Source: Myxococcota bacterium
GTDB taxonomy: Bacteria > Myxococcota_C > UBA6777
DNA length: 57,885 nt
Reading direction: 5' to 3'
NCBI GenBank assembly: GCA_023150835.1
Contig: JAKLKB010000026.1
Span: 1-57,885 of the forward strand
Position numbers and translations under genes: made by a program
Shown: in pieces, positions 7,362 to 47,044 of the stretch
How the letters are laid out: each line of letters opens with the position of its first letter
How positions within the stretch are numbered: position 1 is the first letter of the stretch
The notes under the pieces: generated by a model
What the model was told of the DNA's origin: nothing
What the model saw: only the letters and a program-made list of their open reading frames with translations
Database searches by the model: none

Positions 7362-10175
7362 TCATCGGGGGTTTGGAGCAGCCGCTTTTTTGGCCTCTTC
7401 GACGGCTTTTGACAAACGCTGGATATCTGTCTGAAAAACACCTAAGCGCTGTTTCATTTGTTGCTCTTGCTCTGTCAGCCGCTCTCCAAGCGATTTCAAG
7501 ATCTGCATCGCAGACGGAAGCGTCGAAGAGACGTTGTCCACCGCCATACGAAAGGTCTTTGCGTCCTTTTCCATCTCTCGCAAGCGGCCTTCTGTTTGCG
7601 TAGAAAACTTCTTGAGTAGCTCAAGCGCTTCTTGGATCGGCTTGAGATCCGCTGCGATCCGCGTGAACATCCAACTTCGCGCTTCCGATTCGGCCACCAA
7701 ACGCTTCATTTGTTCTTTGTTTTTGGTATCTTCCGCCACAAGGCGCGCCAGCGCTGCGGGCAGCGGGAACAATATCTTTTGCGTCGCCGCCAATTGGCGA
7801 GAGAGCTGTTGTGCGCGCTGTTGCAACGCATCCAACGAAGCCTTGTGCGCCTCAAGCTGTCGTACTGCTTTTTCCGACGCTTGCTGTAATGCTGTGTCTT
7901 TTGCTTCAAGGGCCTGATGGCGGTTGTCTGCTTGCGCTTGTGCTTGTTGCACCGTCTTGTCAAGCCGCGCCAAAGCCTCGGCCTCGCTCTGGATGCGCGT
8001 GCTGTGTTGTGCGAGGATCTTGCCTTGCGACGCCAAAGCCCCTTGCATCGCTTTTTGCAACAATTGCAACGCGGAGATCTGTTGTTGTTGACCCGCGATC
8101 CGCGCCAAAAGCTCCTTGTGGCGGGAGGCTTGCTTTTCTTGTTCTTCTTTGGCTCGATCTTCCGAGGCTTTCAACGCACGCGATAGATCCGCCAATTGTT
8201 GCTTTAATTGCCCGATCTCGCTACCTTGGCTTTTCCTCGCTCCCTCCAAGCCTTCGACACGCCCCGCCACAGGCGTCACCATCGAACGCGCCCCCTTCAA
8301 CAACATCTCAGGATCAAGAGGCGGCCAAACCAAACGCGCCCCCAACAACCCCACCAAAAAGATCCCCACCAACACCCCCACCACTTTTCCCAACGGCATC
8401 CCTCCCATCACAGCAGGAGGCATCAAAGAATTCGCTGCCACCGCAGCTTGAGAAAGCTCACTCCCCGTCGATGAACTCGTCGGTTTTGTCGCCTGCTCCG
8501 AGGTGCTCTTTTCTGTAACCTTCGCTGGTTCCGATGCTTTCGCAGCTTCTGTAACCTTCGCTGGTTCCGTTGCTTTCGCGGCCTCTGTAATCTTCGTAAT
8601 CTTCTCTGGTTCCGATGCTTTCGCAACTTCTGTAACCTTCGCTGGTTCCGTTGCTTTCGCAGCTTCTGCAACCTTCGTAAACTTCGCTGGTTCCGCTGCT
8701 TTCGCAGCTTCTGTAATCTTCGCTGGTTCCGCTGCTTTCGCAGCTTCTGCAACCTTCGCTGGTTCCGTTGCTTTCGCAGCCTCTGTAATCTTCGTAATCT
8801 TCGCAGGTTCCGCTGCTTTCGGAGCTTCTGCAACCTTCGCTGGTTCCGCTGCTTTCGGAGCTTCTGTAATCTTCGCTGGTTCCGCTGCTTTCGGAGCTTC
8901 TGTCACCTTCGCAGGTTCCGCTGCTTTCGGAGCTTCTGCAACCTTCGCGGGTTCCGCTGCTTTCGGAGCTTCTGCAACCTTCGCGGGTTCCGCTGCTTTC
9001 GGAGCTTCTGTAACCTTCGCGGGTTCCGCTGCTTTCGGAGTTTCTGCAACCTTCGCGGGTTCCGCTGCTTTCGGAGCTTCTGCAACCTTCGCGGGTTCCG
9101 CTGCTTTCGGAGCTTCTGCAACCTTCGCAGGTTCCGTTGCTTTTGGAGCTTCTGTCACCTTCGCGGGTTCCGCTGCTTTCGGAGCTTCTGCAATCTTCGC
9201 AGGTTCCGTTGCTTTTGGAGCTTCTGTAATCTTCGCAGGTTCCGTTGCTTTCGGAGCTTCTGCAACCTTCGCGGGTTCCGTTGCTTTCCGAGCTTCTGTC
9301 ACCTTCGCGGGTTCCGCTGCTTTCGGAGCTTCTGTAATCTTCGCAGGTTCCGCTGCTTTCGGAGCTTCTGTCACCTTCGCGGGTTCCGCAGCTTTCGGAG
9401 CTTCTGCAATCTTCGCGGGTTCCGCTGCTTTCGGAGCTTCTGTAATCTTCGCAGGTTCCGTTGCTTTCGCAGCCTCTGTAATCTTCGCAGGTTCCGTTGC
9501 TTTTGGAGTATCAGAAGGTTTGTTGGAAAAGCTGTCTGTTTTTGGCGCGGAGGAGCGGGACAAAGAAAGAGAGGGTTTCGGTGGTTCGGTCGGTTTCGTT
9601 GGCTCTGTGGGGACTGGCGGGGTGGCTTTTTTAGAGGAATCTGTCGAGGTTGTGGATGCGGATGATTGGGCAGGATCGATGGCTTTTAAGGAGGCCATGC
9701 TTGGGGAGGTTTTTTGTGAGGAGAGGGGATCGTCAGGAGTTGTTTTGGATGGGGGTGGTTTGAATGCCTCTGTTTTGGTGGTGGGGCTGGTGGTGGAGTA
9801 CGAAGTGCGGGCAGGCAAGGAGTCCGAGGAGATCGTCTTGATCGCACCGAGCGAGCCGCTCGAACGGCTAGGCGAGGTGTTCCCTGAAGAGATGGGGCTG
9901 GTTGTAGGTTTGGTGGGCGTTGGGATCGGAGAGCGAGTATTTGTGGGTGGGGGTATCTTCTCGGTGGTTGCAGGAGAAGAAGCTGCGGGGGTTTTGGAGG
10001 GGGAAGGCTCGCTTTGGGAGAGGTTGGAATTCAAAAACGAGTCGATGTTGGTATCGTTGCCAAGCAGCGCATCAAGATCGCCAAGCCCCTCGAAGAGATC
10101 TTCTTGTGCAGCAGGGGGCTTACTTGAGGGAGTGAGTGGATGGGCTTGCGCGTTCTCTTTTTTCGATGAAGTCAT
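7362..10175 (-). CDS. Repeat-rich membrane protein with C-terminal coiled coil
   Basis: A 937-residue protein. The ATG at 10175 is preferred over an upstream in-frame ATG at 10265 because AGGTGAG precedes it. The N-terminal about 250 residues are Ser/Pro/Thr/Lys-rich and disordered. Then come 27 copies of a 12-residue Ala/Pro/Lys/Glu repeat. One membrane helix follows (VVGVLVGIFLVGLLGARLVW), then about 300 residues of heptad-rich coiled coil (Gln, Ala, Leu, Glu, Lys), such as LQQRAQQLSRQLAATQK. The layout recalls TolA or FimV-like proteins, in which a long flexible arm carries an anchor and a coil, but no sequence family is recognised. The topology (repeat arm inside or outside) cannot be read with certainty. 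Confidence 0.8.
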   Translation of the reverse strand: MTSSKKENAQAHPLTPSSKPPAAQEDLFEGLGDLDALLGNDTNIDSFLNSNLSQSEPSPSKTPAASSPATTEKIPPPTNTRSPIPTPTKPTTSPISSGNTSPSRSSGSLGAIKTISSDSLPARTSYSTTSPTTKTEAFKPPPSKTTPDDPLSSQKTSPSMASLKAIDPAQSSASTTSTDSSKKATPPVPTEPTKPTEPPKPSLSLSRSSAPKTDSFSNKPSDTPKATEPAKITEAAKATEPAKITEAPKAAEPAKIAEAPKAAEPAKVTEAPKAAEPAKITEAPKAAEPAKVTEARKATEPAKVAEAPKATEPAKITEAPKATEPAKIAEAPKAAEPAKVTEAPKATEPAKVAEAPKAAEPAKVAEAPKAAEPAKVAETPKAAEPAKVTEAPKAAEPAKVAEAPKAAEPAKVAEAPKAAEPAKVTEAPKAAEPAKITEAPKAAEPAKVAEAPKAAEPAKITKITEAAKATEPAKVAEAAKAAEPAKITEAAKAAEPAKFTKVAEAAKATEPAKVTEVAKASEPEKITKITEAAKATEPAKVTEAAKASEPAKVTEKSTSEQATKPTSSSTGSELSQAAVAANSLMPPAVMGGMPLGKVVGVLVGIFLVGLLGARLVWPPLDPEMLLKGARSMVTPVAGRVEGLEGARKSQGSEIGQLKQQLADLSRALKASEDRAKEEQEKQASRHKELLARIAGQQQQISALQLLQKAMQGALASQGKILAQHSTRIQSEAEALARLDKTVQQAQAQADNRHQALEAKDTALQQASEKAVRQLEAHKASLDALQQRAQQLSRQLAATQKILFPLPAALARLVAEDTKNKEQMKRLVAESEARSWMFTRIAADLKPIQEALELLKKFSTQTEGRLREMEKDAKTFRMAVDNVSSTLPSAMQILKSLGERLTEQEQQMKQRLGVFQTDIQRLSKAVEEAKKAAAPNPR
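8510..9503 (-). repeat. 36-bp tandem repeat (27 units) inside the membrane-protein gene
   Basis: Twenty-seven units encode KA[AT]EPAK followed by [VI][TA]EA[PA]. Three units near the membrane side carry an extra three residues (TKI or TKV, a 9-base insertion). The middle units are the most alike at DNA level, and units toward the membrane helix are more varied. The reading frame is kept throughout. Because the array has few stop codons in any frame, the opposite strand shows a long false reading frame. Confidence 0.93.
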
Positions 10176-10535
10176 GTGCTCACCTGTGATCCTGTAGAAT
10201 GTTATCGAAGAACCCCGATAGTGGCTGTTGCAAAAAGATCCCGAGACGCTATCACAAGCGAACAAAAGACGCTAGAACCGCTCTGCCCAACTTGACGGGG
10301 CGTTGCACTGTTCCATCCAACAGCATCGCTCCTGTGAGGGGTCACGCAGCTTTTGCGAGAACAGATGCCTTGCCAGAAAACAAGTCCAACGTCGTGGCTC
10401 CTCTGTACAAAAGAAAAGAATTCAGTAAGGTTCCTTTGTTGCCGCTTGACAGGTGGCGCATGAAAGAAAAGGGCAAGACAGGCAAGACAAGTCTTTTGTT
10501 TGCTGGTTCAATCGTTGATAAAACGGGAGGTTTTC

Positions 10536-11798
10536 GTGACAAGGCAAATCTTTTTGATCGTTATCGCGCTGGTGACGGGTGTCGTGTTGGCGCGCAGTCA
10601 CAGCGCTTGTGTGTTTGGCGTATCGGTCTGCGAGTACGACGGTAAACAGTACAGCGAGGGCCAACGCTTCGATGCGAAGGACGGTTGTAACACCTGCGTA
10701 TGCAGCCAAGGGAAAGTAATGTGTACGTTGATGGCGTGTACACACTGCACCTACGATGGGAAAAAACACGACGACGGAGCCTCATTTGCTGCGACTGATG
10801 GTTGCAACACTTGCACATGCAACAAAGGGCAAGTGGGTTGCACCAAGATGAATTGCAACAAGACCTGCACCAGCAAAGACACCAGCAAGTGCGGAGGTGG
10901 CGAGTTTTGTGCGTTCGATGCAGGATCGTGTGGCCGTAGTGAGCAAAGAGGTCAATGCAAGGCCAAGCCGCTCGCGTGTGACGCCCAGTACGATCCCGTA
11001 TGCGGCTGCGATGGCAAGACTTACAGCAACGCCTGTAACGCCGAGACATCGGGATCTTCGGTGGATTACAAAGGCATCTGTGTAACAGGTTCGTGTAGTC
11101 ACCTTGGTCATGCCTATGCAGACGGATCGACCTTCCCGAAGGGGGATGGTTGCAACACTTGTACGTGTACCAACGGCAAAGTGGGATGCACAGAAAAAGC
11201 CTGTCCACCGCCGCAAGAGTGCGGAGGGATCCAAGGTGCGGTCTGCCAAAACAAAGCAGAGATGTGCATCCTGCCCAACGGAAGCTGCAAAACAGCCGAG
11301 GCCAAGGGGAATTGCCAGATCCGTCCCCAAACTTGCCCCCAATCTCTCGATCCAGTTTGCGGATGTGACGGAAAGACTTACAACAACGCCTGTGCAGCGC
11401 ACGTTGCGAACGTACAGATCGATTACACAGGGAAATGCAAAGAAGTCTACAAATGCACCTACGACAACAAACTGTACAACGATGGCGAATCTTTCCCATC
11501 GAGCGACGGTTGTAATGCCTGTACTTGCCGTGAGGGAAAAGTCATGTGTACGTTGCTTGTTTGTCCACAGCCTTGTGGGGGTAGTGGGACAGCGGCGTGT
11601 CCAGCGGGGCATTATTGCAACTACAACGACGGAAAATGCGGCGAGATGAACACCAAAGGCATCTGCGCTCCACAGCCCAATATGTGCGACGAAACCAACG
11701 CCCAAGTATGCGGCTGCAACAACACCACTTATCAAAACGCCTGTAAAGCCGCAGCAGCGGGAATTTCCGTCAAGTCGAACGGCGCTTGCACGAAGTAA
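10536..11798 (+). CDS. Secreted Kazal/VWC-like multidomain Cys-rich protein
   Basis: A 420-residue protein. The start is taken as GTG at 10536 because GGGAGG lies five bases before it and a signal peptide follows directly (QIFLIVIALVTGVVLA). A TTG at 10500 would add 12 residues. Four VWC/pacifastin-like modules share the pattern YDGKxYxDGxxFxxxDGCNTCxC. They alternate with three Kazal-type protease-inhibitor modules (DPVCGCDGKTYSNAC and two variants, the last weaker: QVCGCNNTTYQNAC), each preceded by a short Cys module with FCxFxxGxC-like spacing. Kazal domains usually inhibit serine proteases, and a secreted trypsin-like protease is encoded 2.6 kb downstream, so self-protection or protease control is one inference. 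Confidence 0.85.
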   Translation: MTRQIFLIVIALVTGVVLARSHSACVFGVSVCEYDGKQYSEGQRFDAKDGCNTCVCSQGKVMCTLMACTHCTYDGKKHDDGASFAATDGCNTCTCNKGQVGCTKMNCNKTCTSKDTSKCGGGEFCAFDAGSCGRSEQRGQCKAKPLACDAQYDPVCGCDGKTYSNACNAETSGSSVDYKGICVTGSCSHLGHAYADGSTFPKGDGCNTCTCTNGKVGCTEKACPPPQECGGIQGAVCQNKAEMCILPNGSCKTAEAKGNCQIRPQTCPQSLDPVCGCDGKTYNNACAAHVANVQIDYTGKCKEVYKCTYDNKLYNDGESFPSSDGCNACTCREGKVMCTLLVCPQPCGGSGTAACPAGHYCNYNDGKCGEMNTKGICAPQPNMCDETNAQVCGCNNTTYQNACKAAAAGISVKSNGACTK

Positions 11799-35714: not shown

Positions 35715-36107
35715 TCAAAGAGCCGTGAGCTGGCCCAAGACGCTGCTGGTGATATGGAGAACCCACGTCTGGAAATCTTCTTCCGAGATATCTTGCAATT
35801 CTTTACACGAAGGCTCGATAAAATGCTCCAAGAGGATCTCTTGATCGAGAGAACGTTTAAGGAATTGTTGGCAAGCGCTGCGTTCGCAGCGATGGTGACA
35901 TCCAGCAAGACCGATGAGGGACTTGGCTTGGCGGGCGAGTTGAAGAGCGTGAGGTAATTCGGCCATCAGAGGGACGAGATCGATGATATCGATATCGTCG
36001 ATCTGTTCGCGCAAAAGTTGTGCGACGCGTTGAGTGAGTTGGCCGCGTAGCGTATGCCCATTGCAAGGGACAAGGATCACAGAAGCAGCAGAAACAGACG
36101 GAGGCAT
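35715..36107 (-). CDS. Small DGC-type (putative zinc-binding) protein
   Basis: A 130-residue cytosolic protein of the DGC/putative zinc-binding type. The N-terminal strand carries VPCNGHTLRGQLTQRVAQLL. The middle has a cluster, LAGCHHRCERSACQQFL, in the place where the family has GC...C. These Cys/His residues are the expected metal or persulfide site. It is the last gene of the minus-strand sulfur-carrier cluster, 38 bases after the preceding gene. DGC proteins have no settled biochemical role, but here all neighbours are sulfur carriers. Confidence 0.7.
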   Translation of the reverse strand: MPPSVSAASVILVPCNGHTLRGQLTQRVAQLLREQIDDIDIIDLVPLMAELPHALQLARQAKSLIGLAGCHHRCERSACQQFLKRSLDQEILLEHFIEPSCKELQDISEEDFQTWVLHITSSVLGQLTAL

Positions 36108-36145
36108 CGGGGACTCCTAAGGAAGAAAGAAAGCAACCATGCACC

Positions 36146-36538
36146 TTAAAGAGAGACAGCTTTGTGCGTGATCAACAAAGAGGCGAGTTTGGTCAGCCCT
36201 GCTTGTGTGACACAAGAGCGCAAGCCGCCGACTTGATGGGCTTGAGGCGGGAGCGCGGCTTGGGTTTCTTCGGCACAACTCGCACAGACATAGATCTGCC
36301 CGCCCGCTTCTTCGAAAAGTTTGGTGTAGATATCGAGTCGATCAAAACCGGGGATATGGATGCTTTGAAGAACCGATTCAAACGCCCAGATCGCAGCTTG
36401 TGCGTGCAAAAAGACGACAACTTCTTCGCCCATCGCTTGGAGAGAAACCGCCAAAGCAAAGGCCAATGTCGCACGAGAACCACCGTCTTCTTGGCCGTGT
36501 GTCAGGACGATGAGATGCCCTTTGGGTGTTTTTGTCAT
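36146..36538 (-). CDS. DsrE-family sulfur-carrier-like protein (first copy)
   Basis: A 130-residue protein with the DsrE fold pattern: a beta strand and glycine turn (HLIVLTHGQEDGGSRAT), the strand GEEVVVFLHAQAAIW, and a Cys-containing strand IYVCASCAEET at about 79-89 where DsrE proteins hold the persulfide cysteine. A further Cys lies at GGLRSCVTQAG. DsrE and TusD proteins pass sulfane sulfur between partners. It is nine bases from the stop of the preceding DsrE-type gene, so the two are surely co-transcribed and may form a hetero-oligomer. Confidence 0.82.
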   Translation of the reverse strand: MTKTPKGHLIVLTHGQEDGGSRATLAFALAVSLQAMGEEVVVFLHAQAAIWAFESVLQSIHIPGFDRLDIYTKLFEEAGGQIYVCASCAEETQAALPPQAHQVGGLRSCVTQAGLTKLASLLITHKAVSL

Positions 36539-36547
36539 AGATAATCC

Positions 36548-36931
36548 TTAAAAAACAGTAACTTGTCCTTTAATCATAATCTCTGCGACACTGGAGAGGC
36601 CGGCATAATGGGCACCTTTGCGCAGCGATTGGCGAAAAGCGTTGCTGTCCATGGTGGGAAGAAAACAATAAGCATCCAAGCAAGGCGAACACACAAGCAC
36701 GGGTCCGCCTTGTTCGAGATAAGTGCTGAGATACGTTGCGAGCGTGGGTTCGTCAGCGAGTTGGACATCTTCGCCCGTCCCTTCAAAAGCCCACCGGGTA
36801 CCCGAGAGAGTCAGAAAAATACTTACATGGCAGTCCATGGCTTGTAAAGCAAGAGCGAGTTTGGTTCCAAGCAAAGCGGCTTGACCGCCGTCTTCGCGAC
36901 CGCGTGTGATGATGATCAGATGAGGTTGCAC
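36548..36931 (-). CDS. DsrE-family sulfur-carrier-like protein (second copy)
   Basis: A 127-residue paralogue of the next gene. It has LIIITRGREDGGQAALLG at the N-terminus, the strand CHVSIFLTLSGTRWAFEG, and a Cys strand VLVCSPCLDAYC that carries three cysteines, one at the usual DsrE position. It also shares the HYAGLSSVAE-type helix with its neighbour. It lies 30 bases after the DsrE2-type gene. Which of the two is the donor and which the acceptor cannot be told from sequence. Confidence 0.82.
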   Translation of the reverse strand: MQPHLIIITRGREDGGQAALLGTKLALALQAMDCHVSIFLTLSGTRWAFEGTGEDVQLADEPTLATYLSTYLEQGGPVLVCSPCLDAYCFLPTMDSNAFRQSLRKGAHYAGLSSVAEIMIKGQVTVF

Positions 36932-36961
36932 AGGAGACTCCGTAGGAACGGGAAAAAGCGC

Positions 36962-37552
36962 TCAAACCACAAAGAACAGCTTGGATTGGACGGCATCTCC
37001 GAGACAAGAAGTCACACCCGCACACTGGAGATTGGGAAGACCCATGATATCTTCTTCGGTGAAGCCCATGATCTCCATGGTCAGCGTGCAGATGGTGAAC
37101 TTGACACCTGCTTCGACAGCCATATCCATCAGTTGCGGCAAAGAAGAAGAACCCGCTTTTTGCATAAAGTGGCGCATCATCATGGCTCCCATGCCGCCGA
37201 AATTCATTTTGGAGAGGCCGACGCGTGCGGGGCCTTTGGGCATCATCCATCCCATCATACGAGAAAGAAAAGATTTTTTTCTTTCAGGCAAAAGGCTTCC
37301 TTTTTTTCCAAGCGCAGGTTGATGTTTGTCTCGGCGCAAAAGATTCAGTCCCCACAAAGCAAAGAAGATATTGACTTCGAGGCCCATCGAACGGGCGGAC
37401 ATGGCGAGCATAAAAGCGAGAAAGACGCGATCAAAGTCGTCGCTCGATAGCAAGATCGTCATCTGTTGGTTATCCGCAGCAGCGGCATTCATGGCCTTGC
37501 TTTGCATGGCTTGGGCGAGTTGTCGTGCCAAAGAGTCCGAAGAGACAGACAT
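36962..37552 (-). CDS. DsrE2-type (DsrE/DsrF/DrsH-like) peripheral sulfur carrier
   Basis: A 196-residue protein of the DsrE2 group. It has the early strand MTILLSSDDFDRVFLAFMLA, the following helix and strand GLEVNIFFALWGLNLL, a basic Met-rich loop typical of the group (SRMMGWMMPKGPARVG, MNFGGMGAMMMRHFM), and the Cys strand VKFTICTLTMEIMGF where the sulfur-binding cysteine sits. A further Cys pair lies near the end (LQCAGVTSCL). DsrE2 proteins occur with TusA and rhodanese in sulfur trafficking. It comes 42 bases after the TusA multidomain gene. Confidence 0.87.
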   Translation of the reverse strand: MSVSSDSLARQLAQAMQSKAMNAAAADNQQMTILLSSDDFDRVFLAFMLAMSARSMGLEVNIFFALWGLNLLRRDKHQPALGKKGSLLPERKKSFLSRMMGWMMPKGPARVGLSKMNFGGMGAMMMRHFMQKAGSSSLPQLMDMAVEAGVKFTICTLTMEIMGFTEEDIMGLPNLQCAGVTSCLGDAVQSKLFFVV

Positions 37553-37594
37553 AGGAGGCTCCTTTGAAGGAAATCGGCTTGATTCACCGATGGA

Positions 37595-39139
37595 TCAGGG
37601 CTTGTGCAACCAAGCGTGGTACACATGGCCTTGTTGTTTTTCTTTTTGGACGATGTATCCGTGGATATCGCACCAGGCTTTGAGATCGACAGGAAAAGCA
37701 GGGTCGTCGGCGCTGACTTTCAACGGGTGTTTGGGATGTTCGCGGACCTGTTTGCTAAGCTGAACGATGGGCATAGGACATTTGAGTCCGCAAAAATTGA
37801 GGGGGATCGGTTCGGGGGCAAGATCTTCAAAAGAGTCGCTGGAAGCGGAAAGATGCGAAAGGCCGTCAGGAGGAAGCGAAAACGATCCAGAGCTGGTAGG
37901 TTGCGTTGCGTTTGAGGCGAGAGGAACGGGAAGATCGATCAAAGAATCAATGGGGATAGGAGGTTGTAAGGTCGGCGTGCGGGTATCGGTATCGCGAGAA
38001 AACACAACGTTCCCCGAAGCTGGCGACAAGGGGCTACGAGGAGAGGGCGTAGGAGAGGAAGCGGGAAGAGAGTTGTTTCCGACATATTCTGTTGGTGGTT
38101 TCGAAGAGATCGAGGACAACGAGGAGGAGGAGGTCGAAGGGGCGGGAAGAGCGAGCCAAACCACCACAGATTGGTCGGATTGTTGGGCATGAAGAAAGCG
38201 GACGTCTTTTTGTTCGCACCAATGTTGGACGTCTTGGATGAATTGGGGATCGCGGGTTTCGATGCGCAAAAGGCCGGATTTGGTGTGTTGTTTTCGTTCT
38301 TTTTGCAAAGCGACGAGGTGAAGCGGCGAGCGTTTGTCGTTGTAATCGAGGCTCGCGAGCAACGGAAGTCCAAGTTCGCGGACAGGCGGAGGAAGAAGCG
38401 AGGTGCTTTCAGAAGCAGAAGCCAAAGCAACAGGAGAGACGGGAAATGTCGAAGCGGCGAGAAGTTCGGGAGGGACTTTGATGACAAAGGAGCTCGAAGC
38501 AGGCGCAGGGATCACAGGAGGCTTTTTCGCGAAGTGTAGTCGCACACGAAAAGGCAAAGCGTCGGGTGAGGAGAGCCATTCGACACGCGCTTCGCTGCGT
38601 TCTGCCCATGCTTTCAGATCTGCTGGAAAAGCCCGATCATCGGCCATGATATCCAGTGCGGTGGGATTGCTTTTTCGGACATACGCCGAAAGCCGAACGA
38701 TCGGCATCGGACACTTGAGTCCGAGATAATCCATGGATTCGATCGCTGCGTTTTCTGCGCGGGCAGAAGAAAACACCAAGCGACAAAGGGCAGAAACGGT
38801 CTTCTCGATCTCTTTTTGCAAAAGCCCCACAGAAGAAAAGTCGGGCGTGAACAACACCGCGTCAGGTGGGCGAAAAGAGTCCATTTGTGCCTTGGTATCT
38901 TCGATCGAGCGGCTGGTTAAGACCACGAACGCATGGGCCAAAACGAGTCGACGATGTGCGTACAGATTGTTTTTTTGAAGAGCTGCGAGGTCGATCAAGA
39001 CGACCGAAGCGGGCAAGATCTGGTGCAGTTCCTTCGCAGACAGAGCATTTCCGTATTGTAAAACGGCGACTTCTTCTTGCGTGACAGGCGGGAGTCCAAG
39101 CCACTGCGAGAGCGTGTGATAAGCTTGTTGAGATCTCAT
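37595..39139 (-). CDS. Multidomain TusA protein with degenerate modules
   Basis: A 514-residue protein; GGGGGG lies just before ATG 39139. Residues about 137-205 and 447-514 are TusA domains with intact active motifs (GLKCPMPIV; Cys143 and Cys454). Residues about 264-331 read as a third TusA-like domain in which CPMP has become RSPL, so its sulfur site is lost. The first 130 residues resemble the N-terminus of the DGC membrane protein encoded two genes upstream (PPVTQEEVAVLQ versus PPTTTEEVAIVP), but the cluster cysteines are gone. Ser/Pro-rich linkers join the parts. TusA passes sulfur for tRNA thiolation, molybdenum cofactor or oxidative pathways; a double-carrier fusion would fit a relay hub. 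Confidence 0.83.
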   Translation of the reverse strand: MRSQQAYHTLSQWLGLPPVTQEEVAVLQYGNALSAKELHQILPASVVLIDLAALQKNNLYAHRRLVLAHAFVVLTSRSIEDTKAQMDSFRPPDAVLFTPDFSSVGLLQKEIEKTVSALCRLVFSSARAENAAIESMDYLGLKCPMPIVRLSAYVRKSNPTALDIMADDRAFPADLKAWAERSEARVEWLSSPDALPFRVRLHFAKKPPVIPAPASSSFVIKVPPELLAASTFPVSPVALASASESTSLLPPPVRELGLPLLASLDYNDKRSPLHLVALQKERKQHTKSGLLRIETRDPQFIQDVQHWCEQKDVRFLHAQQSDQSVVVWLALPAPSTSSSSLSSISSKPPTEYVGNNSLPASSPTPSPRSPLSPASGNVVFSRDTDTRTPTLQPPIPIDSLIDLPVPLASNATQPTSSGSFSLPPDGLSHLSASSDSFEDLAPEPIPLNFCGLKCPMPIVQLSKQVREHPKHPLKVSADDPAFPVDLKAWCDIHGYIVQKEKQQGHVYHAWLHKP

Positions 39140-39330
39140 CACACCCCCCATTCAGACGAGACGGACAGACGCAAAAGAGAAGAATCCCACAAGATGCGCG
39201 AAATGCGGCGGCTGCAATCGATCCTGCAAGGCGAAACCTCGATGAAGGGAAGTCTCCGTGAGTGTTGCGAGATGTGGCCGCAGCAACGGTGGGCCGTAGG
39301 ATGCAGTGAAGACATAACGGTATCCTCGGA

Positions 39331-39813
39331 TTATCGGGTTTCAAGGTGCAAAATATATTCATCGCCATGAAGGGCATCTCGATCGTCACAAGAGACACGA
39401 AACGGCAATTGTACCGAATCAAGCGCACCTTCGATCAGTAAAGCCAAGACGTTTTCGGTCGGGAGTCCCATCTGGCGACGTGCAGGAAACAACACCCGAC
39501 TGATCATGCAACGCATCACAAGGATCGAAGGACGCGCATGGATATCGGTCTGCGCCAGTTCAAAAACACGGACGAGACCGAGAACACTGAAGACCTCGGC
39601 CAGTTGTTCTAGCGCAGCCATCAGATCGCGTTCGAGCGGGAGTTGGCGGGCGAGAGAGGCCCCCCACTGGCGCAAGATGGCGCGATATTGATCGATCGTC
39701 AGGACTCCTTGATCGATGCTTTCCATCAGGCTGCGAAGAAAAGAGAAGAAAACCTCGTTGCCGCCGGCATAAGCAAGTCGTTGTGATTGGGAGGGTTGTT
39801 GCGAAACGCTCAT
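39331..39813 (-). CDS. Unknown 160-residue protein of the sulfur-carrier cluster
   Basis: ATG 39813 has GAAGGAT upstream, and its ATGA overlaps the stop of the preceding DGC membrane-protein gene by four bases, so translation is probably coupled. The N-terminal part is helical (FFSFLRSLMESIDQGVL). The last 80 residues (LALLIEGALDSVQLPFRV, then DEYILHLE) recall the end of V4R or similar small-ligand regulatory domains, which is a weak match by eye. Two cysteines (RCMIS, SCDD) are present. It is followed by a 191-base gap before the TusA gene. Confidence 0.65.
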   Translation of the reverse strand: MSVSQQPSQSQRLAYAGGNEVFFSFLRSLMESIDQGVLTIDQYRAILRQWGASLARQLPLERDLMAALEQLAEVFSVLGLVRVFELAQTDIHARPSILVMRCMISRVLFPARRQMGLPTENVLALLIEGALDSVQLPFRVSCDDRDALHGDEYILHLETR

Positions 39814-41342
39814 GGCGAATCCTTCGGTGGAGAGTGTGGAGTGGGGACACAAACGCGTTGAGGTTGTTTGTTTTTTCGATGGAGTGGGACTTCGATGCAC
39901 GTTGTTCCGACACGACAGCCCTGTTTGGGGAAAAGCCGAAAGTCGCACTGCGTCATACACAACCCCCCTTTGGTGATCGGCAAGGGATCAACGTAAGGAG
40001 CCAAAGCCTCGGCACGGATACAAGAAGACGGCGCGTGCCAAGGATTCGTCGAGCGCGGACACCACGCCAAGCAATAACGAGTGCAGTATCCGCCTTTTGG
40101 AACAGGCAAGCACATCGGTTTGGTGTAGCCACAAGACTGTTGCGAAGTGCAAAGTCCTCCGATCCAACCTTGGTTGACCATCTGACTGCGCAAAAGATGG
40201 GCAGCGTCGACAGGTGAAGGCTTCGGAGAGGCTGGAGGCTTCGGAGGCGTCGGAGGATTCGAGGTGGGACGATCCGAAGTAGGCGGTTGCACAACAGAAG
40301 AGGCGACATCGGTCAGCGGCTTTTTTTCGGGCGGCGTCGTGTTGGGCTTTTGTGCGACGGTGGCAGACGCATGAAGTGGTCGTGCTGACGTTGCTTCGGG
40401 CCCTATCGTGGATGGCTTTTGGGTCGAAGAAGCATCGGAGGGGCGAAGCGCGCTGGGTCGCGGTGGTTCGGGCGGTTTCGTTCCAAGAGAAAGACGAGAA
40501 AGAGGCGGATGTTTCGATGTTGTCGAAGAAAAAGGAATCGGAAAAGGAGAGGCGAAACGCCACCAGATCGCCGCAGTAAGCAAGAAGACGATGAAAAGGC
40601 CCATATAGCGGGTCTTTTTACGAGCTTTGACGGCTTGATCTTGGAACAGTCCAGTTTGCGGCCCCGAAAAACGCGCCACCGAAACAGAAGGCGCGGGATT
40701 TGGCGGGAAAACATCGTTGCGTGGAGTTGTGGCAGATCTCGGATCTGCCGAAGGAGTTGTCGTCACGGCGACGGATACAGGTGCGGTGGTCGACGCGGGC
40801 GCAGAAGCGACAGAAGCCGCACGAGCGGAAGATGGGGCGGGAAGGAGAAGGTGGCGCTGTTCAGGCAAAGAGGGCAGGTCGACAAAGCGCCGTCGTTTGG
40901 GCGAAAAAGCGGCAGGAGGTAAAAAAGCGGGAGTGTGCGGGACTTGCGGGATCAAGGCCGAATACGAAACGACCGCATCTTCGAGGGAACGGAGTTGGCT
41001 TTCAAAGGGGGCATCTGGGGCAAGGATCACTTCGCGTTCGACGGGAGCAACGTGCGCAAGCAGCTTTTTGGGGCAATTGTCCTTGCATCCAGCCACGCTG
41101 ACGCGGGCTTGTGCGCACTCGTAGCGATGTTGGGTCCCGGGGCCTTTGTGAAAGATCAAGGGCGGGATGGAATAAATGCACGCAAGATGTGGTGATTGTC
41201 GTTGCGCGAGGGCTTGCACGATCCGCCCGATTTGTGGGTTTTTGTCGCAACCATCGCAAGGAACGATCGCGACTTCTTCGGTGGTGGTAGGGGGAATCGC
41301 CAGAAGCGACCAGCGGCTGCGCGAAGACTCTGGTGTGGACAT
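39810..41342 (-). CDS. Membrane-anchored DGC-domain protein with Cys-rich outer domain
   Basis: A 510-residue protein; AAGAAAGG lies before ATG 41342. The N-terminal 135 residues form a DGC-like domain with the cysteines present: VPCDGCDKN (Cys29, Cys32) and VAGCKDNCPKKLL (Cys86, Cys90). A Pro/Ala/Ser-rich linker follows, then one membrane helix (about 247-262, YMGLFIVFLLTAAIWW) preceded by RKK, which places the DGC part in the cytosol. After a Pro/Ser/Thr stalk, the last 108 residues hold a Cys-rich domain (LCTSQQSCGYTKPMC, GGLCMTQCDF). Putting a cytosolic metal/sulfur site and an outer Cys-rich domain on one chain is unusual. It is 27 bases after the kinase gene. Confidence 0.78.
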   Translation of the reverse strand: MSTPESSRSRWSLLAIPPTTTEEVAIVPCDGCDKNPQIGRIVQALAQRQSPHLACIYSIPPLIFHKGPGTQHRYECAQARVSVAGCKDNCPKKLLAHVAPVEREVILAPDAPFESQLRSLEDAVVSYSALIPQVPHTPAFLPPAAFSPKRRRFVDLPSLPEQRHLLLPAPSSARAASVASAPASTTAPVSVAVTTTPSADPRSATTPRNDVFPPNPAPSVSVARFSGPQTGLFQDQAVKARKKTRYMGLFIVFLLTAAIWWRFASPFPIPFSSTTSKHPPLSRLSLGTKPPEPPRPSALRPSDASSTQKPSTIGPEATSARPLHASATVAQKPNTTPPEKKPLTDVASSVVQPPTSDRPTSNPPTPPKPPASPKPSPVDAAHLLRSQMVNQGWIGGLCTSQQSCGYTKPMCLPVPKGGYCTRYCLAWCPRSTNPWHAPSSCIRAEALAPYVDPLPITKGGLCMTQCDFRLFPKQGCRVGTTCIEVPLHRKNKQPQRVCVPTPHSPPKDSP

Positions 41343-41369
41343 GGAATGCCTTTCTTGGGCCAACCCGCC

Positions 41370-43316
41370 TTACCCTTTTTCAGGGGGAGGATAAAAGGAT
41401 TGTAGTTGCGCGAGAAGCTTGAGATCGAGTTGCCGTTGCATACTTCGCTGTAGCGGGCCTTTGTGCGCACGTACAAAAAAATGAGCATTGTGCCAACCAA
41501 GGAGAGTTTCGAGAGCTTCTTCTCCACACGTCGAGCCGAGGCGAACATCCAAGATATCCTCGCCTTGGCTATAAAGCATGGCTTGGAGCGAGTCGTCTGT
41601 TTTCAAAAAATGCGTACAAAAGATGCCGTCATGTTCGCTTAAAGTGCGCAATAATTGAGAAAGATGGATATGGCGAAGCTCTCCCTGTAACAGCGTTTCT
41701 TCTGGAGAGATTCCAAGATAATTCGCGGAAGAAGACATACTTCGTTCTAGTCGAATATTTTCCCCTTCGAGCTGCGAATTCTTCAGTTGCAATTCTTCGA
41801 TGATCTGTGTGGCATGGAGATTTGCGTCCGCAAGCGCGCTCAATCGGTCGCGTAATTCGGCTTCTTTGACGCTGCTATGTTCTACGTTGCGTTGCAAAAG
41901 TTGCAGGCGTTGGATGGTCGCAGAGCTTTGTTCGAGCACTCGCAAGCGCTCGTGGATATCGGAGAGGGAAGGACGCCCGAGATGGACAGTGCTGATCCCA
42001 CACAGTTCGATCGCCATGCGCAAGAGTTCAGGCTGGGCCTCTGCGAGAACAAGCACTTTGTGGACATCGTGAAAATCTTTGAGGGCTTGGAGAAAGGGAT
42101 GTTCGAGGGCGACATGAAGGCCACCAAAGATCACACCGGCGGGGACGCGTTGTTGGGAGAGGAGTGCGCGGAGCGCTTGATGGATCTGGTCGTTGTTTTC
42201 GAGCAGTTGGATCTGATAGCTTTTTTGGTTTGACCAAGGATCGACAAGGCGGCGGATCAAGGATTCGTCGAAAAGAGCATCATTGGCGAGGAGATAAACG
42301 ATGGGGCGGCGTTGGGCTTGGAGCAAAGGTGAGCTTTGTGTGAAGGAACGAGCGAAGATGCCCGAAGATTGGGCAGATGAAGCGTTGGAGGCGGGTTGGT
42401 TGGGCTGGGCGACAAATTGGCGAACACAATCTGCGGTGATGCGTCGAAGTTTCTCTTGGGTTTGAGGAAGGATGCAAGCTTCTAAGGCATCGAAAAAAGC
42501 GCGTGCGTGGGGGTAACGTTTCGTGGGTTCGGGAGAAAGAGCACGTTGAACGATCGCGGCGAGAACAGGGTCGATCTGTGGAATGACTTCTTGGATGGGT
42601 GCAAAGTTCGGATCCATCGCAGACTGTAAAGCACGCCATGAATGCTCGCGAGCAAAAAGAGTTTGTCCCGTTAAACCTTCATAAAGTAATATGCCTAAAG
42701 TATAAAGATCAGAGCGATGATCGACGACTTCCCCACGCGCTTGTTCGGGGGAAAGATAGCCAAACTTACCTTTGATCGTGCCGGGTTGAGTCTGATGAAG
42801 CTGATCGCGGAATCGTGCAAGCCCAAAATCCGCCAACTTCACATGGCCTTCTCGGGAGAGCAGGAGATTGTCTGGGCTGATATCGCGATGCACAAGGTTC
42901 ATGGGTTCGCCATGTTCGTCTTTCAGGTGGTGCGCGTAATCAAGAGCCAACAAAGTCTGCATCACGATATAGATCACCACTTCGGGCGGGATCCCGTAAC
43001 GCGCTCGAATCAACGAAGACACCGTACACCCATCCACATACTCCATAACGATGGCGTACTCTTGCTCAAGGCGCTCAAATGACCAAAAAGACACGATGTT
43101 CGGGTGATTGAGATAAATCGAGAGGCGAGCTTCGTTCATCAAACTGTTCATGAGTTCCGAAGATTGCGACCATTGCGCGGGAAGCTTTTTCAACACCACT
43201 TGCTTTTGAAAGCCTTCGACACCTTCGTAAGCCGCAAGGTACGTCACCCCCATCCCCCCTGCACCAAGCAACGCCTTGAGAGAATAAGAGGAAGACGTTT
43301 TTTCGGTGTTTTTCAT
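41370..43316 (-). CDS. Ser/Thr kinase with pseudo-receiver and DUF4388-like domain (kinase A)
   Basis: A 648-residue protein. Kinase residues 12-290: Gly loop [12 protein letters not shown], lysine VLKKL (K43 or K44), catalytic HRDISPDN (D145), metal DFG (D163) and YLSPEQA. Residues about 325-450 look like a receiver domain (PIVYLLANDALF, VIFGGLHVALEH, KVLVLAEAQPELL), but the place of the phospho-accepting Asp reads IFGGLH, so it is probably a pseudo-receiver. A heptad stretch follows (ADANLHATQIIEELQLKN). The last 107 residues match DUF4388 (LLQGELRHIHLSQLLRTL). There is no membrane helix. It is the first gene of the sulfur-carrier cluster and likely its regulator. Confidence 0.9.
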   Translation of the reverse strand: MKNTEKTSSSYSLKALLGAGGMGVTYLAAYEGVEGFQKQVVLKKLPAQWSQSSELMNSLMNEARLSIYLNHPNIVSFWSFERLEQEYAIVMEYVDGCTVSSLIRARYGIPPEVVIYIVMQTLLALDYAHHLKDEHGEPMNLVHRDISPDNLLLSREGHVKLADFGLARFRDQLHQTQPGTIKGKFGYLSPEQARGEVVDHRSDLYTLGILLYEGLTGQTLFAREHSWRALQSAMDPNFAPIQEVIPQIDPVLAAIVQRALSPEPTKRYPHARAFFDALEACILPQTQEKLRRITADCVRQFVAQPNQPASNASSAQSSGIFARSFTQSSPLLQAQRRPIVYLLANDALFDESLIRRLVDPWSNQKSYQIQLLENNDQIHQALRALLSQQRVPAGVIFGGLHVALEHPFLQALKDFHDVHKVLVLAEAQPELLRMAIELCGISTVHLGRPSLSDIHERLRVLEQSSATIQRLQLLQRNVEHSSVKEAELRDRLSALADANLHATQIIEELQLKNSQLEGENIRLERSMSSSANYLGISPEETLLQGELRHIHLSQLLRTLSEHDGIFCTHFLKTDDSLQAMLYSQGEDILDVRLGSTCGEEALETLLGWHNAHFFVRAHKGPLQRSMQRQLDLKLLAQLQSFYPPPEKG

Positions 43317-43581: not shown

Positions 43582-43608
43582 AAAAACGGGGATGACGAAA
43601 CCGTCATC
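43582..43608 (-). terminator. Intrinsic-terminator-like hairpin after the cytochrome c-NnrU gene
   Basis: On the minus strand GATGACG-GTTT-CGTCATC forms a perfect seven-base-pair stem overlapping the stop codon of the cytochrome gene (43604-43606), followed by CCCG and five T. It would end the upstream transcript, making kinase A the first gene of its own unit. Confidence 0.55.
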
Positions 43609-44791
43609 GATAAGGGAACGGCGAAACGCCGACAAAAAGCGTGTGAGTATAAAGCAATGCGACGTACACCACGAGGGCGGCAGAAAGGCGGAGAAGAGAA
43701 ACATCCTTTCGTGTGAGGCGCGTTCGCCCTTGAATGACCGCCAAGAAAGGAAGGGCGGAAGTTTGTTGCGCAAAGGCTTGCCATGCCTCGCCCTGCGTTG
43801 CGCGGCGGCGAGCATCGATGTGCGCCATGCCGACGAGGGCAAGAAACGTCACACTTCCAAAAAGGATGACACTCGCGAGATCGCCGTTGGTGGGGATATG
43901 CAACATCCCCCAAAGCGCAAACGACCAAAGAGACGGATGGCGCGTGATCTTGAGGATACCTTGGACGGCGTCTTGTGCAGAGAGTCGATTTTCTTGTCCG
44001 GCAGTCGTGGGACTTGGGGTACTGACGCCCAACACAAACAACACACACACCACAGGCATCCCCAAAAGCGGCAGATAACGCGTCCATGCAGGTGCCACCC
44101 AAAGCTCGACATACGGCGCAGAAGACCAGCCCCACGACATCCACAGCATCGCAGTCAAGGCGATGATCGAATACAAGCCTTGAAAAGCGCCGTTTCCAAG
44201 GCGGTCGCTCAAGCGGCGGCGAACAGCCAAGCTAGAAAGCCCGAGATGACCGAAGACAAAGAGCAGCGCACCGAGGATCACATGCCAAAGGCTTACTGTC
44301 CCCTTAGTTCGGGCTTCTTGGAGCTTTTGAGGTTCGGAAAGATCGCGTAAGACAGCGAGGATCGCTTCTTCTTCTTGTGCGGCCAGCCGATACGCGGGCA
44401 TCACAGGAGCATACCCTTCGCGGATCTCGGATTGCGGTTCACGCAGCGCACGCAACAAAGCCTCGCGATCGGCGATCGCATGGAGGCGTTTTCCGCCGCG
44501 CTGGATGGCGCGAGGCTTGTTCCATAGCCCCGCCAATCCCGGCCCGATATGGCGATCGAGATCAAGGCGATGGCAGCCAGTACAACCTTGTTGAACCAAG
44601 ACCTTGCGGCCCAGTACAAGGTGTTCTTTGCGGCGGATCGAAGAGGCGAGGTCAGATCGCGTAGGTTGTTTTTGCGCGGATTGCGCGGGCGGTTTTTGCG
44701 TGGATTGTGCAAGAGCCTCGGCCCATCCACCTCCGATGAAACCCACCCACCCACCCACCAAGACAAGATACCTCATGCCAAGATTTCGCAT
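43604..44791 (-). CDS. Cytochrome c fused to an NnrU-type membrane domain
   Basis: A 395-residue protein, GGGAG before ATG 44791. A signal or anchor helix (YLVLVGGWVGFIGG) is followed by a mono-haem cytochrome c domain: haem-binding CTGCH (Cys70, Cys73, His74), GPGLAGLW, and a likely distal ligand Met131 (YAPVMPAY). The rest has about six membrane helices. It resembles NnrU family proteins (GILKITRHPSLWSFALWG), which are linked to nitrogen-oxide metabolism though their mechanism is unsettled. A fusion of haem carrier and NnrU would place redox chemistry at the membrane. It sits between two kinases of the same architecture. Confidence 0.85.
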   Translation of the reverse strand: MRNLGMRYLVLVGGWVGFIGGGWAEALAQSTQKPPAQSAQKQPTRSDLASSIRRKEHLVLGRKVLVQQGCTGCHRLDLDRHIGPGLAGLWNKPRAIQRGGKRLHAIADREALLRALREPQSEIREGYAPVMPAYRLAAQEEEAILAVLRDLSEPQKLQEARTKGTVSLWHVILGALLFVFGHLGLSSLAVRRRLSDRLGNGAFQGLYSIIALTAMLWMSWGWSSAPYVELWVAPAWTRYLPLLGMPVVCVLFVLGVSTPSPTTAGQENRLSAQDAVQGILKITRHPSLWSFALWGMLHIPTNGDLASVILFGSVTFLALVGMAHIDARRRATQGEAWQAFAQQTSALPFLAVIQGRTRLTRKDVSLLRLSAALVVYVALLYTHTLFVGVSPFPYR

Positions 44792-44872: not shown

Positions 44873-46918
44873 CTAAAAGGAATCTCCCTCGGGGAGACTC
44901 CATTCTGTCGAAGAAGAAGTGCGATGCGCCTCGTCCATGCGGCGCAAAAGATCCAACAAAAGCTGATCCGTGCGTTTGTGGATCGTCGTTTCAACCCCCG
45001 CAGGAAGGGCTTGTAGCATAAAATGCGCGTCTGACCAACGGAGCAAAAGCTCGATCACAGGCTCTCCACGCAACACCCCATAACAAGCATCCACCACTTC
45101 GCCTTTTTCAAAAAACAGGGATGCTTGATGAGGATCTTCTTTGCGGATCAAGGAGACGCACGCGCTTTTTCGGCTCAAGTTGAGCAACTGGAAGATATCA
45201 GTCAGCGACATCTCACGAAGTTCACCACGCATAAAACAGCCCGAACGATGGGCTTGCATCTCTTCGGTAAGCAAAGTGCGCGAGATGCGTTCGAGAAAAT
45301 GATCTTTGGCTTCAAGTTCTTTGTTTTTGGCATTAAGTTCTTCAAGAAGTTGAACTGCTCGGATATTGGCCGCAGCGAGCGCGTCGACCCGCGAACGCAT
45401 CTCGATCTCGATTTGGCTGCTGCTTTCCAGACGTTTTTGAAGCATATGCAAACGATCGGAGCTTTGGTGCGTGTTCAAAAAAGAGTGGAGGTGTTCCTGA
45501 ATCCCATCCAGCGTCAAGGGAGCCTGCAACGTGGCCGTCACGCCGCAAAGTTCGACGGCCAATTCGACGATCTCAGGTTGGGGTTGATCGAGAACCAACA
45601 GCTTCGCGATATGGGGATGACTTCGCAGCGCCGCAAGAAAGGGATGTTGCAAAGCCACTTGCAAACCAGCAAACAAGACACCGTCCGGCACACGATGAAG
45701 GTTTTGAAGTGCATCTATCGCACGAGAGCTATCCGCCTTGTCTCGCAAGATCTCGAACTGATAAGCCTTGCGCCCTTGCCATGGGTTGGCGATTTGATTG
45801 CAGAGGCTTTCGGGAAAAAAAGAGTCATTGTGCAAGAGATAGATCAGCGGCTTTTGATGATGTTCAGAAAGAATAGCATGATGCGTTTGTGAAGTTTGTC
45901 GCATAGAATTCACAGAAGGATCCGATTGAACCAAAACAACCTTTTTCTTGTTTTGTAGTGTACTTAACCAACCAGAAGAAGTTTTTTTATGCTCTTCAAA
46001 TCTCTTTTCTGCGAGAAAAGTATGCAGTTTTTCTTCGAGAAGCCGTCGCATTTTTTCGAGGCTCCAAGGTAAAACAAAGACTTCAAGCGCATCATAAAAA
46101 GACCAAGCATTTTGGAAGCGCTGTTCAGGATCGGATTGAAGGGATTTGTGAACGATATCGATCAAGGACGGGTGAAGTTGGGGGGCCGCTTCGTGGAGAG
46201 GTGGGATGGCACCTTTTGCAGAGAGTTGAAGCATCTGGAGCGGGTGTTCTGCTTGGTAAAGACGGCACCCCGTCAAGCCTTCGTACAACAAGATGCCCAC
46301 AGCGTAGAGATCCGCACGCTGGTCGAGTCTTTGGCCGCGTGCTTGCTCGGGGGACATATAGCCGTATTTGCCTTTGATGGTTCCGGGCTGAGTTTTATCG
46401 AGTTGATTGCGGATCTTGGCAAGACCAAAGTCGGTCAGTTTGGCAAAGCCATTGTGGGCCAAGAGCACGTTGTCTGGGCTGATATCTCGGTGGACGAGAT
46501 GCAGGGGGCGTCCGTTTGCGTCTGTTCGTTTGTGAGTGTAATCAAGGGCCAGCAAAAGCTGCATCACAACGCACAAAACAATCTCTGGTTCGAGCCGTTC
46601 GGTATTTTGCATCCAAAAAGACAGAGGGCAACCATCGATATACTCCATCACAAGGGAGTATTCATTTTCTTCGTGGAGCAAGTCGTAGATGGAAACGATG
46701 TGCGGATGATCGAGCATCACCGCCAGCCGAGCCTCCGAGATCAGGGCATCGACCATCATCGGATCATGCGTCAGGTTGGGATGCAAGCGTTTCACGACCA
46801 CTTGTTTTTCAAACCCCTCGCTCCCTTCGTACGCAGCGAGGTAAGTGACACCCATGCCACCCGCCCCCAACAATCTCTTGAGTTGATAACGCTTCGCGGA
46901 TCGCAGAGCAGACACCAT
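44873..46918 (-). CDS. Ser/Thr kinase with pseudo-receiver and DUF4388-like domain (kinase B)
   Basis: A 681-residue paralogue of kinase A. ATG 46918 has CAGGAGAAG upstream; in-frame starts at 46978 and 47035 would extend it. The kinase has [32 protein letters not shown] and YMSPEQA, so it should be active. The middle ([32 protein letters not shown]) is receiver-like without a convincing phospho-Asp. A coiled-coil stretch precedes the DUF4388 end ([17 protein letters not shown]). It ends 81 bases before the cytochrome c-NnrU gene and may be co-transcribed with it. The order suggests a duplication of a kinase unit. Confidence 0.9.
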
Positions 46919-47044
46919 ACGATTCTTCTCCTGATTCTCTTTTAAAAACAAACTCTTGTGTCGATTTTCGACATTCATCCGCACCGTCGCGCCATGCACC
47001 GCGCCAACACACGCACAAAGATACGGCACCTTCAAAAACTTTCT

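Follow-up and report, generated by a model that had tools for sequence, protein, structure and literature searches.

TusA and DsrE are intracellular couriers of reactive sulfur. In the 7.56 Mb draft genome of a Myxococcota bacterium (G000), genes of both kinds follow a Ser/Thr kinase gene, and the question is what joins sulfur carriers to a kinase. The window analyzed here is a 57,885-nt stretch of DNA, which is one entire contig of this genome. We read the cluster as an operon that may encode a module of sulfur carriers tethered to the membrane and coupled to Ser/Thr kinase signalling, with a probability of about 0.42.

Gene organization of the cluster

Eight genes were confirmed at 35715-43316 of the window, all on the minus strand. 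In transcription order, they encode a Ser/Thr kinase, a membrane DGC protein, a third protein, a TusA fusion, DsrE2, DsrE a, DsrE b, and a small DGC protein. The intergenic gaps, in the same order, are 27, -4, 191, 42, 30, 9, and 38 bases. The features of the cluster and of the two genes upstream are as follows.

41370-43316, minus strand: Ser/Thr kinase (Pfam Pkinase, 4e-38; orthologues head the cluster in G001, G003, and G004)
39810-41342, minus strand: membrane DGC protein (alignment; Pfam DGC, 2e-4, under the curated cut-off)
40548-40604, minus strand: predicted transmembrane segment of the membrane DGC protein, residues 247-265 (hydropathy and positive-inside count)
39331-39813, minus strand: third protein, predicted TRAPP/V4R fold, without a Pfam family (AlphaFold2 model, Foldseek, and VIA)
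37595-39139, minus strand: DGC-like/TusA concatemer, 514 amino acids (Pfam TusA, 8.5e-31, three stretches)
38573-38734, minus strand: TusA repeat 1, CPMP (TusA profile)
38156-38350, minus strand: TusA repeat 2, RSPLH replacing CPMP (TusA profile; clade support 0.967)
37604-37801, minus strand: TusA repeat 3, CPMP (TusA profile)
36962-37552, minus strand: DsrE2, Met-rich (Pfam DsrE_2, 7e-42; PDB 3pnx and 2qs7)
36548-36931, minus strand: DsrE a, GTG start (Pfam DsrE, 8e-9)
36146-36538, minus strand: DsrE b (Pfam DsrE, 4e-9)
35715-36107, minus strand: small DGC protein (Pfam DGC, 2e-11)
44873-47035, minus strand: KIN2, a paralogue of the cluster kinase with DUF4388 (Pfam and tree)
43604-44791, minus strand: cytochrome c (CTGCH)-NnrU fusion between both kinases (Pfam; a doubtful cluster member, found in genus g1 only)

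The initial annotation of this DNA had described eight compact minus-strand genes, and its coordinates and gap sizes were borne out. The seven genes that it named are supported by Pfam. The eighth (39331-39813) had been left unnamed, although it is conserved. The TRAPP/V4R-fold protein that it encodes had been overlooked, as had a TusA repeat lacking Cys and the DGC-like character of the fusion's N-terminus.

No sigma-70 promoter above chance was found in the cluster region. All TusA and DsrE matches found in G000 lie inside the cluster, and a third DGC gene of this genome is on a different contig. Two further genes of the window were observed at a distance from the cluster. One (10500-11798) encodes a Cys-rich protein with domains of the Pacifastin, VWC, and Kazal protease-inhibitor type, which are unexpected in a bacterium. 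The other (7362-10265) has no Pfam match; its long product contains a low-complexity repeat of the form EAPKAAEPAKVT.

Conservation of the cluster in relatives

The search of the organism's own phylum covered five genomes of one family (G000 to G004), and the cluster-bearing ones are drafts. G000 and G001 belong to genus g1, G002 and G003 share a second genus, and G004 represents another. The cluster was present in four of the five, G000, G001, G003, and G004. In G001 and G004, a single contig carries all eight genes with the order and strand seen in the window; in G003, they are divided between two contigs, whose shared stretch lies in the TusA gene. In genus g1, 191 bases lie between the first three genes and the remainder. 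In G003 and G004, this junction is a 4-base overlap of the third gene with the TusA gene.

Outside the genus, the aligned proteins share 27-64% identity with those of the window. Within it, all eight genes are under purifying selection (dN/dS of 0.008-0.34 between G000 and G001); DsrE2 has the lowest value, 0.008, and the membrane DGC protein the highest, 0.34, with most others at 0.065-0.15. The same order in relatives despite such low identity, together with purifying selection on every gene, indicates that the cluster is a real conserved operon. The initial annotation had staked its claim that these genes belong together on a gene order shared by relatives. That order is kept over three genera with the kinase as a fixed member, and the claim survives.

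In G002, which is 86% complete, the TusA fusion, DsrE b, and the third protein had no match, so the module is either dispensable or overlooked there. A pattern scan with DsrE b over about 85,000 species genomes, whose reach is close relatives only, returned just the three known relatives. So far, the cluster is confined to one small Myxococcota-like lineage.

The kinase and its duplication

The alignment showed that the HRD, DFG, and GAGGMG motifs of the cluster kinase are intact. The kinase is thus complete in its catalytic motifs, as had been proposed, and it is the first gene of the cluster in G001, G003, and G004. Its middle domain looked receiver-like by eye, with a G at the acceptor Asp position. 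A coiled coil and a C-terminal region that is DUF4388 in paralogues were also recognized. Within G000, the nearest paralogue is KIN2. The two kinases group together with support of 90/96 and represent an in-place duplication that was found in genus g1 only. The cytochrome c-NnrU gene is kept in G001 and missing from the clusters of G003 and G004.

G000 is very rich in kinases, with about 146 protein-kinase-like matches in its 7.56 Mb, so an adjoining kinase alone means little. That a kinase heads the cluster in three genera is telling. A role in anti-phage defence was considered and rejected: PADLOC models matched the kinase only, through its generic kinase domain, and the other seven proteins matched none.

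Cysteine residues of DsrE2 and the DsrE proteins

The cluster DsrE2 belongs to PF13686 by its score (7e-42) and its conserved Cys. Cys155 and Cys183 are invariant in four genomes, and Cys155 aligned with a Cys of both PDB relatives, 3pnx (2e-30) and 2qs7 (3e-11). Against the NCBIfam DsrE2 equivalog NF047629, it scored 58.1 bits, which is below the curated cut-off of 210, and we therefore did not file it under that model.

In DsrE a, Cys81, Cys84, and Cys89 are invariant in four genomes. Its structural relative 3mc3 is SSO1125, a DsrE3A. DsrE3A proteins carry a Cys-X7-Cys motif, and their gene is linked to dihydrolipoamide dehydrogenase (PMC4175335). Cys81 and Cys89 of DsrE a correspond to this motif, and both align with Cys of 3mc3 at an E value of only 0.01. 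A dihydrolipoamide dehydrogenase gene was found neither in the cluster nor in the scanned neighbours in G000, G001, G003, and G004, and because this linkage is absent, DsrE a was not filed as DsrE3A. Cys85 and Cys88 of DsrE b are likewise invariant in four genomes, and Cys85 aligns with the first Cys of the Cys-X7-Cys pair.

Thus, the Cys required for sulfur transfer do not vary in DsrE2, in both DsrE proteins, or in the CPMP repeats, in agreement with the DsrE-type Cys noted at the outset. As these core residues are all conserved, sulfur carriage by the cluster proteins is plausible.

A TusA concatemer with a Cys-less repeat

Three repeats of the window's fusion protein score over the Pfam cut-off and place it in the TusA family (PF01206). 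The number of repeats varies: three in the window, six in G004, and at least four in G003, counted there over two contigs. In each genome, the CPMP of one repeat is replaced by RSP[LM][QH], so that the catalytic Cys is gone there. The Cys-less repeats of the different genera form one clade with support of 0.967. The intact CPMP motifs reported initially are therefore those of repeats 1 and 3 of the window protein, while its middle repeat reads RSPLH. Since a repeat is retained without its catalytic Cys, it is probably kept for docking or structure and not for sulfur transfer.

The N-terminus of the fusion scores as DGC in G003 (3e-4) and G004 (1e-3), where four Cys are kept. In genus g1, the corresponding region is DGC-like without those Cys, which implies that sulfur carriage is not required of every part. 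No tandem TusA protein turned up in the literature search.

Two DGC proteins, one with a predicted membrane segment

DGC is a putative zinc-binding domain according to Pfam. The small DGC protein is a member of PF08859 (44.1 bits against a cut-off of 27), and its Cys15, Cys70, Cys74, and Cys79 are invariant in the alignment. Its profile had no match among PDB sequences. The N-terminal DGC domain of the membrane protein falls below the same cut-off (21.8 bits against 27, E 2e-4) and keeps the four Cys; Cys29, Cys32, Cys86, and Cys90 are invariant. The DGC Cys clusters that had been pointed out are therefore present in both proteins as four invariant residues each.

The membrane protein has one predicted transmembrane helix. 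Positive charge is more abundant on its N-terminal side, which by the positive-inside rule predicts an N-in/C-out topology. Twelve invariant Cys lie in the predicted extracytoplasmic domain. This arrangement suggests a cytoplasmic DGC domain joined to an oxidised outside domain. A structure model of the protein was poor (pLDDT 46) and was left unused. The initial annotation had the membrane DGC protein sense or shuttle across the membrane. With a single predicted transmembrane segment, anchoring or signalling is possible, while shuttling is unlikely.

The DGC domain was also considered as a general partner of sulfur carriers, and this was rejected. TusA, DsrE, or DsrE2 was found within at most 8 kb at none of 30 stand-alone DGC loci, 29 of them outside the lineage. 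The neighbourhood profile for TusA recovered 20 of 20 control loci; that for DsrE was checked on one locus (L025) only, and distant DsrE may escape it. An unrelated genome (G228, contig C25, 64771-66345) has three consecutive DGC-domain genes on one strand. A literature search under the Pfam number PF08859 and the name DGC returned diguanylate-cyclase papers only and no functional paper on the domain.

The third protein is predicted to adopt a TRAPP/V4R fold

The third protein has 160 residues and no Pfam family above cut-off, with weak matches to TRAPP and to bacterial cellulose synthase subunit D. It has a single invariant Cys, Cys106, in 164 aligned residues. Its AlphaFold2 model (pLDDT 80.5) retrieved BcsD, TRAPPC3, and PoxR in Foldseek at E values of 5.6e-5 to 1e-3. 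VIA gave a Z score of 12.5 with TRAPP (rmsd 3.1 over 142 residues) and 10.5-11.2 with the MopR/PoxR sensor domains. The model has the three-helix, two-strand, two-helix, two-strand layout of the TRAPP/V4R fold superfamily. We therefore predict a TRAPP/V4R-fold protein; its predicted fold is like that of Bet3, MopR, PoxR, and BcsD, but identity to them is roughly 8-19% and a Pfam assignment is absent.

Proteins of the TRAPP/V4R fold include ligand sensors, such as the phenol sensors MopR and PoxR, and scaffolds, with BcsD and TRAPP as non-sensory members. Since the fold spans sensors and scaffolds, it does not fix the role of the third protein on its own. Outside the lineage, no match below an E value of 0.002 was found in about 380 genomes; the three weak matches (E 0.002-0.009) lay in larger or partial frames. 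The sequence of the third protein was not detectable in the N-terminus of a GGDEF protein of G003.

Comparison with described sulfur-carrier systems

TusA, DsrE, and DsrE2 are sulfur carriers in described systems (PMC4175335 and PMC9918477). Their pairing is common, as DsrE2 lay within 1.5 kb at 10 of 20 unrelated TusA loci. The core of the cluster is thus a known kind of sulfur-carrier set. In Metallosphaera cuprina, the dsrE3A-dsrE2B-tusA genes likewise encode TusA, DsrE2, and a Cys-X7-Cys DsrE together, but they are flanked by Hdr-like and dihydrolipoamide dehydrogenase genes (PMC4175335). In the window, their place is taken by a kinase, DGC proteins, a TRAPP/V4R-fold protein, and a TusA concatemer.

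Among published systems, the closest is the yrkE-yrkF-yrkI cluster of Bacillus licheniformis with the two-component system NreBC, in which DsrE- and TusA-type carriers are also clustered with a signalling kinase (PMC9918477). A difference is that sqr and pdo are controlled by a PAS-domain histidine kinase in Bacillus, whereas the kinase of the window's cluster is of the Ser/Thr type and this cluster has no sqr, pdo, or rhodanese gene. Staphylococcus aureus CstA resembles the fusion in being a multidomain sulfur-carrier protein with TusA. According to PMC9918477, CstA is a rhodanese-TusA-DsrE fusion; the cluster fusion has three to six TusA repeats, one of them Cys-less, and a DGC-like domain. 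A carrier set combined with such a kinase, a membrane anchor, a TRAPP/V4R-fold protein, and a TusA concatemer was not found in the literature searched, in line with the earlier view that no described system has the same make-up.

G003 has a second locus (L025, contig C533, 9932-11710) with TusA (CPRP), DsrE (Cys-X7-Cys), and a GGDEF diguanylate cyclase on one strand. The GGDEF gene starts 25 bases after TusA-DsrE. It is a single case in which carriers again lie beside a signalling enzyme.

Interpretation of the cluster

The cluster could simply be a metabolic relay, as the initial annotation had it: DsrE2, DsrE, and TusA would pass sulfane sulfur to an enzyme of tRNA thiolation, cofactor synthesis, or sulfur oxidation that is encoded elsewhere, and the part of the kinase would be limited to tuning the relay. 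The conserved linkage, the membership of the kinase, and the invariant Cys on which that account drew all held, and its membrane shuttling became unlikely. The published roles of these carriers (PMC4175335 and PMC9918477) and their conserved Cys agree with a relay, as do the rhodanese genes found elsewhere in G000 and the fact that no TusA or DsrE match of this genome was found outside the cluster. Yet, as first noted, there is no adjoining sulfite reductase, Hdr, or rhodanese gene; no sulfur-oxidising or sulfur-reducing enzyme or acceptor was seen in the cluster of any cluster-bearing genome; and no Hdr-like, DsrAB, or DsrC gene is linked to the carriers there, so that the linkage typical of sHdr/Dsr systems was not found. 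DsrC was not found in G000, G001, and G004, three of the four cluster-bearing genomes. A relay also leaves the membrane protein with its outside domain and the sensor-like fold unexplained. We consider it rather unlikely, and favour the signalling-coupled module on three grounds: the lack of a sulfur enzyme in the cluster, the DsrC result, and the three signalling-like parts. On the signalling side are the kinase that is always first, the third protein with its predicted MopR/PoxR-like fold, the predicted outside domain, and the TusA-DsrE-GGDEF locus.

Could the Cys residues of DGC, DsrE, and TusA be metal ligands or disulfide partners instead of persulfide carriers, with the kinase reporting their state? 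The putative zinc binding of DGC, the Cys pairs in both DsrE proteins, the 12 Cys of the membrane protein's outside domain, and the cytochrome c-NnrU gene between the kinases in genus g1 fit such a metal- or redox-sensing complex. But in CPMP and at the active site of DsrE2, the carrier motif has a single Cys, and solved relatives of DsrE2 retain the same Cys, which makes this reading improbable. It is more improbable still that a sulfur-carrier operon merely sits beside a signalling operon without joint function. The abundance of kinases in G000 and the 191-base gap in genus g1 would allow it, but the 4-base overlap across that junction in G003 and G004, the order kept over three genera at 27-64% identity, and the DGC domains in both halves, including that of the TusA fusion, argue against it.

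For the membrane-tethered module coupled to kinase signalling, we propose the following scheme. The Cys of DsrE2, of both DsrE proteins, and of the CPMP repeats would hold and exchange sulfane sulfur. The TusA concatemer may double as a scaffold in which the Cys-less repeat binds a partner but takes up no sulfur itself. The DGC membrane protein would anchor the assembly at the membrane and expose an oxidised, Cys-rich domain outside, and the TRAPP/V4R-fold protein may be a ligand-binding or adaptor subunit. The kinase would respond to the loading or ligand state by phosphorylating partners. Sulfur transfer, complex formation, the direction of signalling, and the kinase substrates are what we infer here from the sequences.

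A bolder version, which we regard as doubtful, is a Ser/Thr kinase pathway that takes the sulfur loading of TusA and DsrE as its input through the concatemer, with its inert docking repeat, and the DGC anchor; together with the TusA-DsrE-GGDEF locus, it would point to a lineage-wide habit of connecting carriers to signalling. The cluster provides a genomic context for the DGC domain and a TusA repeat that is retained without its catalytic Cys. If the reading is true, it would be a direct, testable case of sulfur-carrier status entering bacterial Ser/Thr kinase signalling.
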